NCBI RefSeq assembly: GCF_030733745.1
Contig: NZ_JASHIK010000023.1
Location: forward strand, 1-64,000
DNA: 64,000 bases
Reading direction: 5' to 3'
DNA from: Stappia sp. MMSF_3263
GTDB lineage: Bacteria; Pseudomonadota; Alphaproteobacteria; Rhizobiales; Stappiaceae
This document shows, in pieces, positions 14,463 to 19,454 of the stretch; position 1 is the stretch's first letter; every line of letters starts with the position of its first letter. The notes under the pieces were generated by a model. That model did not search any database, was not told the DNA's origin, and saw nothing but the letters and a program-made list of their open reading frames with translations. A program made the position numbers and the translations under genes.

Positions 14463-15296
14463 TCAGGGCCGGACGTGCGCCGATGGATTGTCGAGGCCGG
14501 CCGGTGACAAGGTGAAGATCTCGCAGCCCGTAGCGGTGATGCCGACGGAATGCTCGAACTGGGCCGAGAGCGAACGGTCGCGGGTGACCGCGGTCCATCC
14601 GTCCGCCAGGACCTTCACATGTGGTCGGCCGAGATTGACCATCGGCTCGATGGTGAAGATCATGCCGGGCTTCAGCTCGATGCCCTCGCCCGGGCGGCCG
14701 TAATGCAGGATGTTCGGCATGTCGTGGAACAGGCGACCGACGCCATGGCCGCAGAAATCGCGCACGACCGAGCAGCGCTCCGCCTCGACATAGCTCTGGA
14801 TCGCGTGGCCGATATCGCCGGTGGTGTTGCCGGGTTTCGCCGCCGCGATGCCGCGCAGCAGGGATTCGTAGGTGACCTCGACCAGCCGTTCGGCGGCGCG
14901 CTTGGGCTGGCCGACCGAATACATGCGGCTGGAATCGCCGTGCCAGCCGTCAAGGATGTAGGTGACGTCGATATTGACGATGTCGCCGTCCTTGAGCGGC
15001 TTGTCGTTGGGAATGCCATGGCAGACGACATGGTTGATCGAGGTGCAGGTCGACTTGGTGTAGCCGCGATAGTTCAGCGTGGCGGGAATCGCGTCGTGCC
15101 GAATGCCGAAATCGAAGACGAAATCGTCGATCTCCTGCGTCGTGACGCCGGGCACGATCCGCTCGGCCAGAGCGTCTAGGCAGCGGGCGGTGAGTTGCCC
15201 GGCCCGGTGCATGCCGGCGAAGTCGTCCGGTCCGTAGAGCCGGATCTGGCCGGTGTTCTTCAGTGGTGCCGTCGCGGCGTCGATATAGGTGACCAT
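14463..15296 (-). CDS. map: Methionine aminopeptidase, type I
   Basis: A 277-residue cytosolic metalloprotease that removes the initiator methionine from nascent proteins with small second residues. The pita-bread fold ligands can be seen in NIDVTYILDGWHGDSSRM (two Asp) and CGHGVGRLFHD (His), with further Glu ligands in MIFTIEPMVN and AQFEHSVGI. Length is normal for an alphaproteobacterial enzyme, with a short N-terminal extension of about 25 residues. It lies upstream of radC on the same strand. Confidence 0.96.
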   Translation of the reverse strand: MVTYIDAATAPLKNTGQIRLYGPDDFAGMHRAGQLTARCLDALAERIVPGVTTQEIDDFVFDFGIRHDAIPATLNYRGYTKSTCTSINHVVCHGIPNDKPLKDGDIVNIDVTYILDGWHGDSSRMYSVGQPKRAAERLVEVTYESLLRGIAAAKPGNTTGDIGHAIQSYVEAERCSVVRDFCGHGVGRLFHDMPNILHYGRPGEGIELKPGMIFTIEPMVNLGRPHVKVLADGWTAVTRDRSLSAQFEHSVGITATGCEIFTLSPAGLDNPSAHVRP

Positions 15297-15798
15297 CGGT
15301 ATCCCGCAATCTGTCCCGATCCGCCCGGCGCTTCTGGCTGTCGCTCCGGGGGGCGTTGCCGCCGCCGGCGCGATCCCGGCGCCCGAAGGAGGGCGCGCCC
15401 GCCGCTATCGGACCTGTCCTGTTTGGTATAGCCTTAATTCGCCGGGGCGCGCGGTGCAATCCGCATTCGCCGCAGGGTTGCCGACCGCCCAGGAGAGAAG
15501 GGCACGCCAGGCGCAGGCGCGCGCGCGATGCGGGCAGCCTGCCATTTTCCGAGCCGGGCCAAGCACAGGGCTGAACGGGCATCGTAAAGGCTTCGCCCGG
15601 AGCGACCCGCCAGGCAGCCGCATCCACCGCTCATCCTTGCTGGTGATGCGCCACTTCGATCGCCGCCTGTGCCGCAGTCTCGCGCTGCATCCGGGATGCA
15701 AACGCGGCTTGGCCAATCATCAAGCTCAGACATGTCAAGAATCCTTAGGCATCCACGCGCCGGCTATGGTATGCGGCGCGCTCACAGAGGTTCCCCAG
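15297..15798. other. Intergenic region between map and the DEAD-box gene
   Basis: A 502-bp gap. Open frames here (for example 15434-15733 on the minus strand) have no recognisable protein features, are Arg/Ala-rich in the way random GC-rich frames are, and lack good ribosome-binding sites. The divergent promoters of map and the helicase must lie here. I see no clear terminator, RNA structure or repeat. Confidence 0.4.
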
Positions 15799-17610
15799 AT
15801 GGCCCCAGCCCACGACGCCGATTTTTTGCCGACCCCCATTCATCCATCCCTTGCTTCCGCGCTTGAAGCGAAGGGTTACAAACATCTCACGCCGGTCCAG
15901 TTGGAGATGGCGGACAAACGCTATGCCGAGGCCGATCTTCTGGTTTCGGCGCAAACCGGCTCGGGCAAGACGGTTGCCTTCGGCATCGCCATCGCCTCAA
16001 GCCTCCTTGGGAGCGCGAGCCATTTCGATCGCCCGGACCGGCCGTTGGGGCTGATCATCGCGCCGACGCGCGAGCTGGCGCTTCAGGTGCAGCAAGAACT
16101 CGACTGGCTCTATGGGGCGGCGCGTATTCAGACCGCGACTTGCGTCGGAGGCATGGACGTACGCAAGGAACGCCGCGCGCTTGAGCGCGGCGCGCATCTC
16201 GTCGTCGGCACGCCCGGGCGCCTGCGCGATCATATCGGAAGAGGCGCGCTGGACCTCGGGGCGCTGCACACCGTGGTGCTCGACGAGGCCGATGAAATGC
16301 TCGATCTCGGCTTCCGTGAAGACCTTGAATACATCCTCGGCGCGGCTCCGGCGGAACGCCGAACGCTGTTGTTCTCGGCAACTGTGCCACGTGGCATCGC
16401 GGACCTGGCCAAGACCTTTCAGAAGGACGCGCAACGCGTGGCGGTGACCGTCTCGACCGACCAGCACGCCGATATCGAATACCAGATGATGCTTGTGCGG
16501 CGCGACGAGCGCGAGCATGCAGTGATCAATACGCTGCTCAACTCCGACAGCACGAGCGCGCTGGTATTCTGCCACACGCGCGAGGCCGTGCGCCACTTGA
16601 CCGCACGCCTCGCCAACCGCGGCTTCTCGGTGGTTTCGCTTTCAGGCGAAATGGCACAGTCCGAGCGATCCAACGCGTTGCAGGCGATGCGGGATGGCAA
16701 GGCACATGTGTGCGTGGCGACCGACGTCGCGGCCCGCGGCATCGACCTGCCGAATCTTGATCTCGTCATCCATGCGGACGTGCCGAGCAATCCCGCAACG
16801 CTTCTCCATCGCTCCGGCCGGACGGGACGTGCGGGCCGCAAGGGCGTGTGCGTCCTTGTCGTGCCTCAGCACAGGCGCAGCGCGGCGCAACGCGTCCTTG
16901 CGCTGGCCAGGTTGACGGCGGTCGAGCGTGCCGCGCCCGGCATCGCCGAGATCGAGGCGCGTTATCGCAAGGACATAATGGATACGGCGCTCTCCACCGC
17001 CGAACCCGACGAAGCAGAAGCCGCGTTCGTGGCGGAGCTGCTTGCGAAAGTCGCTCCCGAGCGCGTTGCCGCAGCCTTCCTGCGCCACCAGCTCAGCTCC
17101 CGCCCTTTGCCGGAGGATCTGACCCCTCTGCCCGCCGCCGAGATCCACGCGAAAAAGTCCAGGTACGACAAAAAGGTCGGGCACGAGCGTGGCCCGGTCC
17201 CGGCACGAGAGCCACGCGGACCGGACATGGAGGACGGCGTCTGGTTCACGCTTTCGCTCGGCCGCAAGCAGCGCGCCGACCCGAAGTGGCTGCTGCCGAT
17301 GATCTGCAAGGCCGGCGGCGTGACCAAGCGCGACGTCGGCTCGATCAGGATCGAGGATGCCCAGACCCGGTTCGAGATTGCCGGCGACAAGGCGGCCTCG
17401 TTTGCAGAGCAGGTCAACCGGCCCGGCGGTACCGAGCGCGGTATCGTCATCGCACCGGCCGGAGGGGCGCCGGGGCCAGCGCGGCAGGCGAAAGCGAAAG
17501 TCCGCAAAGACGCGAAGCCGGGGAAGAAGCCTGCGCACCGTGGCAAGGCCGCACCTAGCGATCCCGGCCAGGCCCGCAAGCACAAGGGCAAACCGAGGCG
17601 CCCAGGCTGA
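15799..17610 (+). CDS. DEAD-box ATP-dependent RNA helicase
   Basis: About 603 residues. Helicase motifs appear in order: Q motif region HLTPVQLEMA, motif I AQTGSGKT (about 52-59), PTREL, motif II VLDEADEML (Asp about 162), motif III FSATVP, and motif VI HRSGRTGRAG (about 337-346). A C-terminal domain of about 75 residues (from MEDGVWFTLSLGRK, about 476) resembles the DbpA RNA-recognition fold, followed by a basic Lys/Arg tail (from about 555). This suggests a role in ribosome assembly or RNA remodelling. The open frame extends 170 codons upstream, but homology starts at about MAPAHDADFLPTPIHPSL, so I take the ATG at 15799; ATG 15766 is an alternative. Confidence 0.93.
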   Translation: MAPAHDADFLPTPIHPSLASALEAKGYKHLTPVQLEMADKRYAEADLLVSAQTGSGKTVAFGIAIASSLLGSASHFDRPDRPLGLIIAPTRELALQVQQELDWLYGAARIQTATCVGGMDVRKERRALERGAHLVVGTPGRLRDHIGRGALDLGALHTVVLDEADEMLDLGFREDLEYILGAAPAERRTLLFSATVPRGIADLAKTFQKDAQRVAVTVSTDQHADIEYQMMLVRRDEREHAVINTLLNSDSTSALVFCHTREAVRHLTARLANRGFSVVSLSGEMAQSERSNALQAMRDGKAHVCVATDVAARGIDLPNLDLVIHADVPSNPATLLHRSGRTGRAGRKGVCVLVVPQHRRSAAQRVLALARLTAVERAAPGIAEIEARYRKDIMDTALSTAEPDEAEAAFVAELLAKVAPERVAAAFLRHQLSSRPLPEDLTPLPAAEIHAKKSRYDKKVGHERGPVPAREPRGPDMEDGVWFTLSLGRKQRADPKWLLPMICKAGGVTKRDVGSIRIEDAQTRFEIAGDKAASFAEQVNRPGGTERGIVIAPAGGAPGPARQAKAKVRKDAKPGKKPAHRGKAAPSDPGQARKHKGKPRRPG

Positions 17611-17700
17611 ACCTGCCGCGGGACGGTCCTCATTCATAAAGACATGAGCGTGACAAGCCCGTGACCACAACCTGGTTTTCCTTATCGACGAAGGCATACC

Positions 17701-18357
17701 ATGCTGGCCTGGAAACAAGTGGATCGAACCTCTGTCCCCGGCGGGGGCGAACTCAAGCTCATGCAACGGGGCGACGAGTTTTCCATCATGTCGGGGGCGA
17801 CCGAGTTGATGAACAGCCGCCGGGGCGGCTCTGAAGAACAGCTGGCGATCCTGGCGGCCGACCGGATAGGCAAGCGGGACCGGACCCGGGTCCTGATCGG
17901 CGGTCTTGGCATGGGCTTCACGCTGCGGGCAGCGCTCGCGCATTTTTCCGCGCAGTGCGAGATCATCGTCGCCGAACTGGTGCCGACCGTCATCGCCTGG
18001 GCCAAAGGTCCGCTTGCCGGCGTCCACGGCGAAAGCCTGGCGTGTCCGCGCGTCGTCCTTCACGAAGGCGACGTTGCACCGGTGATCAGCGACAACGGGC
18101 CGTTCGACGCCATATTGCTCGATGTCGACAATGGCCCGGATGGACTGTCCCGGCCGGCGAACGACCAGCTTTACAACGCAAGGGGACTGGCTGCCGCGCG
18201 GGCAGCGCTCAATCCCGGCGGCGTTCTGGCCATATGGTCCGCTGCCTCCGATCAACGGTTTGCAAAACGCCTGCGGCAAACCGGTCTGGAGGTCGAGGAG
18301 GTGCGTGTACGCGCAGGCGGCGCACGGCATCTCGTCTGGCTCGCCAGGAAACGCTAG
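17701..18357 (+). CDS. Spermidine-synthase-like SAM-fold protein
   Basis: A 218-residue Rossmann-fold protein related to spermidine synthase/SpeE-like methyltransferases. It has a glycine-rich nucleotide loop LIGGLGMGFTLRAAL (about 62-76), an acidic strand end VAELVP, and the motif ILLDVDNGPDG (about 139-149). It is shorter than true polyamine aminopropyltransferases (about 280) and lacks the usual N-terminal beta domain, so the polyamine role is unproven. It may bind SAM or decarboxylated SAM. It starts 90 bp after the helicase with a GAAGG ribosome-binding sequence and may be in the same transcript. Confidence 0.82.
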   Translation: MLAWKQVDRTSVPGGGELKLMQRGDEFSIMSGATELMNSRRGGSEEQLAILAADRIGKRDRTRVLIGGLGMGFTLRAALAHFSAQCEIIVAELVPTVIAWAKGPLAGVHGESLACPRVVLHEGDVAPVISDNGPFDAILLDVDNGPDGLSRPANDQLYNARGLAAARAALNPGGVLAIWSAASDQRFAKRLRQTGLEVEEVRVRAGGARHLVWLARKR

Positions 18358-18666
18358 GGCGAACCCGAACCAGTCATCCCTTTGCGTCCTCATGGGGCGC
18401 AGCCGCCGGTTCATTGCCCGGGCGCGCCTTGACCACCGGTTTCTTCTTCTAGGCCTTGGAAAATCTGCCCGCTGGGTGTTCACGCCGTGTTCGGAGCCGG
18501 AGCTGCCGCGCGTCTCGCGCCAGCGGGAGTTCACGGACGAGGAGACCCCGGCGCATCTCACGCCTCCCGACGCCATGATTTCGGTTCCGGAGGGCCTCCA
18601 AGCCAGCGCGGCCAACGCAGTTCCAGGTTGAGCATTGGCCATCGCTTTGCTAGCAGAGATGCACGT
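18358..18666. other. Intergenic stretch before the split tRNA-Leu gene
   Basis: 309 bp without a convincing gene. A frame ending at 18631 contains a Pro/Glu-rich peptide (FTPCSEPELPRVSRQREF and onward) that could be the remnant of a lost 3' gene end, but it has no start or ribosome-binding site of its own. The tRNA promoter lies at the right end. Confidence 0.3.
18628..18656 (+). promoter_or_regulatory. Likely promoter of tRNA-Leu(UAA)
   Basis: TTGAGC (18628-18633) and TAGCAG (18651-18656) are separated by 17 bp and end 10 bp before the tRNA 5' end. Both are imperfect matches to a sigma-70-type promoter, but their position is what a tRNA gene requires. Confidence 0.4.
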
Positions 18667-18958
18667 GCGGACGTGGTGGAATTGGTAGACACAAGGGACT
18701 TAAGGCAAACTTGAGTGCGCTGGCGGAAACGCCGGACGTAGAACTGCTCAAATTCGGGGAACCCTGTCAGATGGCGATCCCGAGCCAAGCCCGAGCGATC
18801 GGGAAGGTGTAGAGACTAGACGGGCAGCACCTAAGGCATTCGCTAGGGTGAAGGTATAGTCCAGACCACAAACGCCGAGAGGCGGCGGCGAAAGCCGTAG
18901 CTGGTACGAAAATCCCTCAGCCTTGGCTATGCGGGTTCGAGTCCCGCCGTCCGTACCA
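18667..18958 (+). tRNA. tRNA-Leu(UAA), split by a group I intron
   Basis: Exon 1 is 18667-18701 and exon 2 is 18909-18958. Joined, they make an 85-nt class II tRNA with encoded CCA. The acceptor stem is GCGGACG (18667-18673) paired with CGTCCGT (18948-18954), with G1-U72 at the end as in other leucine tRNAs. The anticodon stem is AGGGA (18694-18698) paired with TCCCT (18913-18917). The loop is C U U A A A A with anticodon UAA. The long variable arm is AGCC-TT-GGCT and the T arm is GCGGG-TTCGAGT-CCCGC. The gene is interrupted after U34, the first anticodon base. A normal tRNA scan could miss it. Confidence 0.95.
18702..18908 (+). ncRNA. Group I intron (IC3-like) in the anticodon loop of tRNA-Leu(UAA)
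   Basis: A 207-nt intervening sequence with the full group I core. P1 pairs exon ACTT and intron AA (18698-18703) with TTGAGT (18711-18716), placing the conserved U-G wobble (U18701, G18713) exactly at the 5' splice site. P4 is TTCGGG (18753-18758) with CCCGAG. The R and S elements are TAGAGACTAGACGG (from 18810) and GTATAGTCC (to 18862), which form P7 GACTA (18814-18818) with TAGTC (18857-18861). P8 is CACCTA/TAGGGTG. Two GNRA hairpins follow (18873-18884 and 18886-18897). The intron ends in the required terminal G (18908). It closely resembles, from memory, the cyanobacterial tRNA-Leu(UAA) intron. There is no endonuclease ORF, so it is a minimal intron that is probably self-splicing. Confidence 0.93.
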
Positions 18959-19454
18959 GTGAATTTGATCCCGGACATTCCACATGGGAGCTGAATTCGC
19001 TGCTTACCCGAGCGTGACAGCCTCACCGGAGGCCCTCTGAAAGGGACGGCAACATGCCCGCCGTCACCTCCGGCAATCCAGCTGCCGGAGAACGGCAGCG
19101 GACTGGGCCGCAGGCGAGCGCGAAGCCTTGACCACGTCCGCCCAGCCTTGTACTTGGCTCGGCTGGGGAAGATGGTAGGTTGGCAGCCGAACGTCCTTGC
19201 CGCCTCGAGGCGACGGGCGGAGGAGGTCCGGGAGGTCCGCCGGGCGAGCAGAATTCGTGCACACGGCCCGGCGCACTGCCGGCGAAAACCGGTTTTACGT
19301 TTCAATACAAGGCTATACGGACGGGCCTGCAGGATCTAAAATTCTTTGGCCTTGCGCCGTGCGGGGGCAGGTCCCGCGCCCCGCGTGCCGGCGGCCCGCA
19401 GCGGCCGGGAGACGAACTGATCGCGAACCGTAGACGACGAAAGACGCCCGCAAC
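18959..19454. other. Intergenic region between tRNA-Leu and trkH
   Basis: 496 bp with no supported gene. Short frames on both strands are Arg/Pro-rich and featureless. Several GC-rich inverted segments occur (for example around 19072-19100, CCGGCAATCCAGCTGCCGG), but none is followed by a T run. The trkH promoter is presumably in the AT-richer patch near 19290-19350. Confidence 0.35.

Follow-up and report, generated by a model that had tools for sequence, protein, structure and literature searches.

How a tRNA gene reading UUA comes to be interrupted by a group I intron in an alphaproteobacterium is the question raised by a locus of Stappia sp. MMSF_3263, analysed here in a stretch of 64,000 nucleotides (the window). 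The original prediction placed a tRNA-Leu(UAA) gene at this locus, split after U34 by a group I intron, and both calls were confirmed. ARAGORN run without introns reports no tRNA at this position; when introns are allowed, it returns a tRNA-Leu(taa) with a 207-nt intron from position 36. The 5' exon (18667..18701, +) ends at U34 and the 3' exon (18909..18958, +) begins with A35 and includes the CCA; once joined, they are called by the same program as tRNA-Leu(taa), a standard leucine tRNA. The intron itself (18702..18908, +) is recognised by the Rfam model RF00028, which matches over its whole length at 18692-18887 (+) with 55.3 bits for a gathering score of 50 (E 2.5e-11). It is the sole RF00028 match reported in the 5.02-Mb genome, an assembly of 50 contigs that is 99.87% complete. 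A second tRNA-Leu(UAA), which would have relieved the cell of the need for splicing, was found in this genome neither among the RF00005 matches nor by ARAGORN nor with a UAA pattern. The leucine tRNAs among the 45 RF00005 matches are TAG, CAG and GAG, in a search that is incomplete, as it missed the Leu(CAA) recovered by pattern; the UAA pattern matched the window gene alone in the whole genome and its reversed control gave one match. A tRNA finder run without introns overlooks the only UUA-reading tRNA found in this genome. The end pair of the mature tRNA is G1.U72 (window 18667 and 18954), which is also present in some intron-less congeners and is therefore unlinked to the intron.

P1, P2, P3, P4, P6, P6a, P7, P8, P9, P9.1 and one further pairing are formed in the window intron, and these helices were counted on 79 distinct tRNA-Leu introns, that of the window among them. 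P1 (18698..18716, +; strands 18698-18704 and 18710-18716) bears the predicted U.G pair at the 5' splice site, which is found in 79/79 rows, five exon bases having been filled in by script in four rows without stored exons. It is followed by the P2 hairpin (18720..18735, +), closed by a GAAA loop, all 6 pairs of which are changed on both sides in some rows. The strands of P3 (18744-18749 and 18822-18827, spanning 18744..18827, +) surround P4 (18753-18758 / 18779-18784, +), P6 (18784-18786 / 18806-18808, +), which shares G18784 with P4 in the assignment used, and P6a (18790-18803, +) with its GCGA loop. P7 pairs GACTA (18814-18818) with TAGTC (18857-18861; 18814..18861, +), as had been predicted, and P8 (18828-18850, +) lies between its strands. 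The P9 region (18865..18905, +) contains P9 (18873-18884), P9.1 (18886-18897) and an outer pairing (18865-18868 / 18902-18905, +) formed in just 70.9% of the cells, and the expected terminal G is read at 18908. Compensatory changes are found in P1, P2, P6a, P9 and P9.1, all of them outside the pattern used for collection. Since most of the 79 introns were collected by an exact pattern in P7-P3-P8, with which P6, P7, P3 and P8 overlap, the conservation of these four helices results in part from selection of the set. No endonuclease gene was found within the intron, the ORFs listed there being overlapping frames that run far outside; with 207 nt in all, there is no room for one and this is not a homing-endonuclease intron.

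Azoarcus tRNA-Ile has a group I intron, and the window intron, which resembles it, may belong to subclass IC3. The tRNA-Leu(UAA) intron of cyanobacteria and plastids is inserted at the same point as that of the window. Vepritskiy et al. reportedly found in 2002 a tRNA-Leu(UAA) intron in a deep-subsurface Pseudomonas, which is likewise non-cyanobacterial but belongs to a gammaproteobacterium. To our knowledge, neither the spread of such small tRNA introns devoid of endonuclease nor their position in the anticodon loop had received a clear answer. The passages in PMC4033280 on the cyanobacterial and plastid intron concern the same tRNA as in the window, and those in PMC7717549 describe group I introns in the tRNA-Arg(CCU) of Agrobacterium and Bartonella, the latter reportedly self-splicing in vitro and spliced in vivo. 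As far as these descriptions go, the window intron is similar to the proteobacterial tRNA-Arg(CCU) and tRNA-Ile introns in size, core sequence and anticodon-loop position. It differs from them by its host tRNA, and no close integrase of the group discussed below is present in their 12 and 22 listed loci.

The original prediction implied that alphaproteobacteria seldom have an intron of this kind in tRNA-Leu(UAA), a view that is not supported: RF00028 matches (E<=0.001) are found in 31/385 evenly drawn genomes of the class, 14 of them over the cut-off. Besides the window, 29 loci were typed with ARAGORN or an exon pattern, giving 13 tRNA-Leu(UAA), 3 tRNA-Arg(CCT), 1 called tRNA-Lys(ttt) and a remainder left unassigned. 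A named pattern scan returned at least 118 stretches: at least 82 tRNA-Leu, at least 22 tRNA-Ile, at least 12 tRNA-Arg(CCU), at least 1 tRNA-Arg(UCU) and 1 of ambiguous type, where ten loci had first been assigned to tRNA-Leu by hand and L081 to the ambiguous class. Among the matches listed, these introns span the Alpha-, Beta- and Gammaproteobacteria, the Acidobacteria, the Binatota and, through a few MAGs, other phyla. The 124 introns placed in a tree fall on two sides: 28 tRNA-Ile introns form a group (support 0.955; one of the 28 was entered by hand), and the other side (support 0.911) holds 81 tRNA-Leu introns, one tRNA-Lys intron and the group of 12 tRNA-Arg(CCU) introns (support 0.789). 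The tRNA-Arg introns thus fall within the tRNA-Leu group and the tRNA-Ile introns outside it. The single cyanobacterial sequence, entered by hand and also serving as root, sits with the tRNA-Ile side, a position that does not amount to a formal test of kinship. The tree does not include four duplicate records of one gene, nor 13 introns, namely 12 of ambiguous or cut-off extent and the 484-nt tRNA-Leu intron of Tahibacter harae (L179), which apparently has large insertions in the P5 and P8 regions. Two contigs, L178 and L191, are both 17,218 long and share the same intron region, but are filed under two unrelated MAGs, so that one of them is probably misbinned.

A comparison within the genus bears on the origin of the window gene. 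All 14 Stappia genomes have a tRNA-Leu(UAA), interrupted in 4/14 and uninterrupted in 10/14. The order map, tRNA-Leu, trkH is found in 9/10 intron-less genomes, trkH being unseen for G001. Two types of upstream block can be distinguished, one preceding the intron-less genes and another preceding the interrupted ones. The latter, a promoter-like block in the window (GTTGAGC..TTTGCTAGCAG; 18618..18660, +), was recognised by eye as common to the intron-bearing genes compared in Stappia, Breoghania and Rhizobium; it recurs in Breoghania, Rhizobium ecuadorense and further Rhizobiales and was not seen before the ten intron-less Stappia genes. Within the genus, the exons of the interrupted genes are also unlike those of the uninterrupted ones. 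Moreover, the window intron is 96.6% identical to that of Breoghania, versus 93.7-95.2% to those of its congeners, and the neighbouring map gene is only 78.8% identical to that of Breoghania, versus 87-88% to those congeners. A different upstream block, and an intron closer to Breoghania despite the distance in map, argue that the whole gene came from outside together with its promoter.

These results bear directly on another reading, in which homing or reverse splicing placed the intron in the resident gene, or in which its descent was vertical and the majority of species have lost it. A patchy presence within one genus is also expected from such gains and losses. The promoters and exons that differ within Stappia, however, already contradict this reading, the greater proximity of the intron to that of another genus than to those of congeners is at odds with it, and its small size leaves no space for an endonuclease gene. 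An old intron kept in place, which the original prediction had offered as its second option, is consequently rejected, and the reading as a whole appears extremely improbable. The host tree, built on seven neighbouring proteins (five of which are missing for G001 and G017), adds a complication: the intron-less G008 nests among the intron-bearing species (supports 75 and 94), and the window genome lies next to the clade holding G008. This position requires several gains or losses; it implies either repeated acquisition of the intron gene or a return of the resident gene in G003 and G008.

A candidate vehicle is found in Breoghania (G017). In this genome the resident tRNA-Leu(UAA) is broken within its anticodon loop, with 31.6 kb separating the two halves, and GGACTTAAAATCC is present at both ends of the inserted element. 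The 5' half adjoins a gene for a 405-aa integrase-like protein, which matches Pfam PF00589 below the cut-off and has a 63.8% relative annotated as a tyrosine-type recombinase/integrase. The insert also encodes a second integrase, a large serine recombinase, ParB/RepB, HipA, a MobA/MobL relaxase and TraG, then an M48 peptidase (Pfam PF01435) followed directly by the intron-bearing tRNA-Leu. The order TraG, M48, tRNA is the same in Oricola. In the window, a decayed fragment of an M48 peptidase gene (18419..18601, +) is located directly upstream of the tRNA and matches residues 192-252 of the Breoghania protein (tblastn, 57% over 61 aa, E 1.8e-13). Together with the upstream block and the contrasting identities of intron and map, this fragment substantiates the horizontal acquisition that the original prediction had put forward. 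No integrase match was obtained in the window genome at E 1e-30 or 1e-80, and a remnant of a resident tRNA was found neither there, over 20 kb, nor in G012. Of the features of tRNA-dependent integration, the window itself therefore shows neither integrase nor split resident tRNA, and it is classed as a relic and not as an active member; that its gene descends from an integrative element is very probable from these comparisons.

Two congeners preserve more of the resident locus. G005 and G002 carry a decayed 3' half of tRNA-Leu beside trkH, with the interrupted gene 2.4-3.5 kb away in the opposite orientation. Such remnants, accompanied by an oppositely oriented new gene, argue, together with the M48 fragment, against another proposal, in which the whole tRNA locus was swapped between species by ordinary recombination and no element ever entered the lineage of the window. 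An exchange of tRNA-Leu(UAA) intron loci is described by a title cited in the reference list of PMC3984707, and Rhizobium and several other genomes contain a lone intron gene with no halves among the matches listed, as would be expected from such a swap; on balance it seems improbable. The segment between map and the tRNA comprises, in the window genome, ORFs read as a DEAD-box helicase and a SpeE-like protein (15289..18357, +), absent from the other 13 Stappia regions compared. An inverted repeat, here called repeat X (19111..19195, +, and 15535-15596, -, 78%), surrounds this segment and the tRNA. It occurs in 4/4 intron-bearing Stappia regions and 0/10 intron-less ones (E<=0.001, about 20 kb per genome) and matches no known RNA family (best E 0.27). 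Recombination between its copies could explain the opposite orientation of the tRNA in three congeners.

The arrangement seen in Breoghania is recurrent. Halves of tRNA-Leu were detected in ten of the at least 118 tiles (8 kb or less per locus) with regular expressions, which miss divergent halves. In 36 further intron genomes, among the matches listed, the intron gene stands between the two resident halves in 4 (Rhizobium pisi, Rhizobiales AFS049917, a Caulobacter MAG and a Devosia MAG); in 3 others (Ensifer, Oricola and Stappia WLB 29), only a 3' half lies near it. The other 29 have no flanking halves among the matches listed; one of them is without any match and one has a 5'-half-like match on another contig. 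In each of the four islands with both halves, an integrase of the Breoghania group, 55-82% identical, is encoded beside the 5' half, and the island ends share at least GACTTAAAATCC. The end repeats measure 13 bp in Breoghania and in the Devosia and Caulobacter MAGs; they are longer in Rhizobiales AFS049917 (18 bp) and R. pisi (about 46 bp), in which the resident gene is still without its 3' end. A split tRNA, an integrase, a short core and a cognate tRNA, the hallmarks of tRNA-dependent integration, are thus found together in those five relatives. At the 5'-half junction of Breoghania, Devosia and G093, a short tRNA-like tail ends in CATGGGCACCA and, by our own reading, seems unfit to make up a whole leucine tRNA. 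In Pacificispira spongiicola (L081:4200-6100), an intact tRNA-Leu(UAA) is accompanied by an extra 3' half 1.8 kb away with a group I core of ambiguous extent in between; perhaps the element repaired the gene here and its own copy then degenerated. In another genome of Breoghania's genus (L251, G022:C1 3321450-3322690), an insert of about 1.2 kb divides the resident tRNA-Leu(UAA) and carries an intron-less tRNA-Leu(taa) with the core AGACTTAAAATCT.

The association can also be approached from the integrase. A relative with at least 45% identity is encoded in 17 of the 82 listed tRNA-Leu tiles (14 near full length and 3 fragments), absent from the other 65, and found in 0 of the 35 listed Ile/Arg tiles (Fisher p 0.003, for tiles made non-independent by shared descent). 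Distant integrases, at 26-27%, occur in two tRNA-Ile loci. Searches with the integrase only gave matches in 19/385 genomes of the class (E<=1e-30), 19/397 of the order and 5/398 of the phylum (E<=1e-80), draws that overlap. With one row per gene and matches under 50% identity left out, the set amounts to 41 loci (15, 20 and 6). Eight of these 41 lie close to an intron-bearing tRNA-Leu: L252, L254, L256, L260, L277, L282 and L284 within 1.5 kb and L257 within 2.1 kb, L260 being counted by a cut-off RF00028 match where a full tRNA is not called. A split 5' half of tRNA-Leu(UAA) is recognisable beside the integrase in L252, L254, L260 and L282, and 4/4 have the intron. A split tRNA-Leu is not recognised in the other four of the eight, and the nearest plain tRNA of L256 and L277 is a tRNA-Asn. 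The remaining 33 loci show in their flanks neither a recognisable split 5' half of tRNA-Leu(UAA) nor an intron; they adjoin tRNA-Met, Phe, Arg, Gln, Trp, Leu(CAA) or Leu(TAG), or none that could be seen. Flanks were checked with Rfam for L252-L264, L271, L277 and L282-L297, and with ARAGORN and patterns alone for L298-L301 and L315-L320.

Elements that break a host tRNA and supply another are known. In tRNA-dependent lysogeny (Guerrero-Bustamante and Hatfull, mBio 2024, PMC10865867), as outlined in the passages on this system, a tyrosine integrase acts on an attB located in a tRNA gene through a short core, 8-17 bp in the non-reconstructing cases, the host tRNA is not reconstructed and the element brings the cognate tRNA; all of these traits are shared by the elements described here. 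The differences, according to the same passages, are that the carried tRNAs are uninterrupted in the published system, whereas here a group I intron lies inside the core, and that the carriers are here integrative elements targeting tRNA-Leu(UAA). The main text of that paper contains the word intron a single time, within the title of a reference. For the alphaproteobacterium Sinorhizobium, the relevant passages of PMC11476347 and PMC12429752 (2024 and 2025) report phage tRNAs replacing host tRNAs and do not mention introns. The open-licence literature, to which the search was confined, yielded in the passages retrieved no description of intron-bearing tRNAs as cargo of integrative elements. 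This is a weak sign that an intron-bearing replacement tRNA-Leu(UAA) on such elements is new relative to the literature searched.

The position of the intron suggests a role. In the carried gene it interrupts the repeated core, with GACTT on one side and AAAATCC on the other. The integrase would have made the insertion and split the resident tRNA-Leu(UAA); the transcript of the carried gene would lose its intron by splicing and provide a mature tRNA in place of the broken one, and at the DNA level the carried gene would no longer offer the core to the integrase. An element so equipped could carry the essential gene that it targets and still avoid recombination with its own DNA. In the Stappia lineage of the window, the element would then have decayed, integrase and resident tRNA being lost, and the intron-bearing gene would have stayed as the only tRNA-Leu(UAA), with splicing needed to read UUA. 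This complete account, a domesticated relic of an integrative element whose intron shields the carried tRNA, is given a probability of roughly 55 to 60% on the genomic comparisons above. The general proposal, that a group I intron can act as a DNA-level shield hiding the integration core of an essential replacement tRNA, perhaps invented twice separately (in the tRNA-Leu elements and in a Gordonia phage with tRNA-Lys), is more tentative and falls slightly short of an even chance. If true, tRNA-Leu introns travel inside replacement tRNAs, on elements that break the host gene, and the intron stops the element from attacking its own tRNA copy. This would explain why endonuclease-less tRNA introns are maintained in the anticodon loop and by what means they spread, and two fields, group I introns and tRNA-dependent lysogeny, would be joined.

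The joined exons give GGACTTAAAATCC in 70 of the 82 introns with both exons read (70 from tiles and 12 from other loci, four being second records of one gene), and the shorter GACTTAAAATC in 82/82, partly as a consequence of exon extraction; as any working tRNA of this kind keeps these sequences, they lend no independent support to shielding. The complete account also has against it the 65 tRNA-Leu tiles without the integrase, the 29 genomes with no flanking halves among the matches listed, the two tRNA-Ile loci with distant integrases and the four integrase-plus-intron loci in which a split tRNA-Leu is not recognised. The intron-less copy carried in G022 speaks against shielding being needed. 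Likewise, Sinorhizobium meliloti prophages inserted in tRNA-Leu(UAA) are reported, in the passages of PMC12429752 on these prophages, to reconstruct the gene, so that this target does not force a shielded design. It may therefore be asked whether the replacement tRNA on elements targeting tRNA-Leu(UAA) simply happens to hold a selfish intron with no protective role. The copy of G022 would fit, as would the tRNA-Ile and tRNA-Arg introns of the same kind, which are without a close integrase of the group among the loci listed, a phage contig (L201) with such a tRNA in a tRNA array, and a further case in a 735-kb phage. Less easily accommodated are the four split tRNA-Leu(UAA) loci of the integrase-only search, all with the intron gene, and the similar design found with tRNA-Lys in an unrelated phage. 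A mere passenger is for these reasons considered distinctly less likely than an intron that shields its tRNA, although a serious competitor.

The unrelated phage is Gordonia phage Daredevil, whose attB is, in the passages of PMC10865867 devoted to it, a tRNA-Lys-TTT that is not reconstructed on integration. Its genome contains a tRNA-Lys(ttt) in whose anticodon loop 238 nt, which include a group I-like core, separate CGGACTT from TTAATCCG. This insert splits CGGACTTTTAATCCG, and an uninterrupted CGGACTTTTAATCCG is also found upstream of the integrase gene. Daredevil is thereby a possible independent case of the shielded design, read from its genome; Rfam at E<=0.001 did not list its intron. 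The same passages of PMC10865867 report the phage as having no own tRNA and forming clear plaques. The first statement seems to overlook the interrupted gene, and the clear plaques speak against a function of the interrupted tRNA in that host. The same tRNA is concerned in a member of the class, L349:1477-1775, where a tRNA called Lys(ttt) has a 223-nt intron.

Other occurrences in mobile genomes were recorded. The cyanobacterial core pattern gave no match in viral contigs. Two phages were examined and rejected, a deep-sea phage with two RF00028 matches and HTVC120P, a BLAST match that Rfam did not list; in both, the matches lie between capsid-annotated ORFs and not in a tRNA. Phage introns known in 2014 were, in the relevant passage of PMC3984707, all in protein genes. 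The phage-like contig L201 (10900-11660, -) contains within its tRNA array what is, by reading, a tRNA with anticodon UAA and a short variable loop; it is interrupted at the same point by a putative intron, which holds a putative HNH-like ORF on the other strand. The 735-kb metagenomic phage (L306:1501-1791, LR756501.1) gives a full-length match, at 71.4%, to the tRNA-Leu(UAA) with its intron. Plasmids also gave matches, with 1279 records matching the window tRNA and intron, 1266 over at least 80% of the length and 1273 at 60-80% identity, in Escherichia, Klebsiella, Salmonella and other hosts. In one of them, pCTX-M3 (L304:7001-7299, NC_004464.2 61823-62121), ARAGORN calls a tRNA-Stop(tta) with an intron, and the RF00028 match reaches 36.8 bits, which falls short of the cut-off; by reading, the locus is an unannotated intron-bearing tRNA-Leu(UAA), with an AAA ATPase gene and aac(3)-IId as its neighbours.
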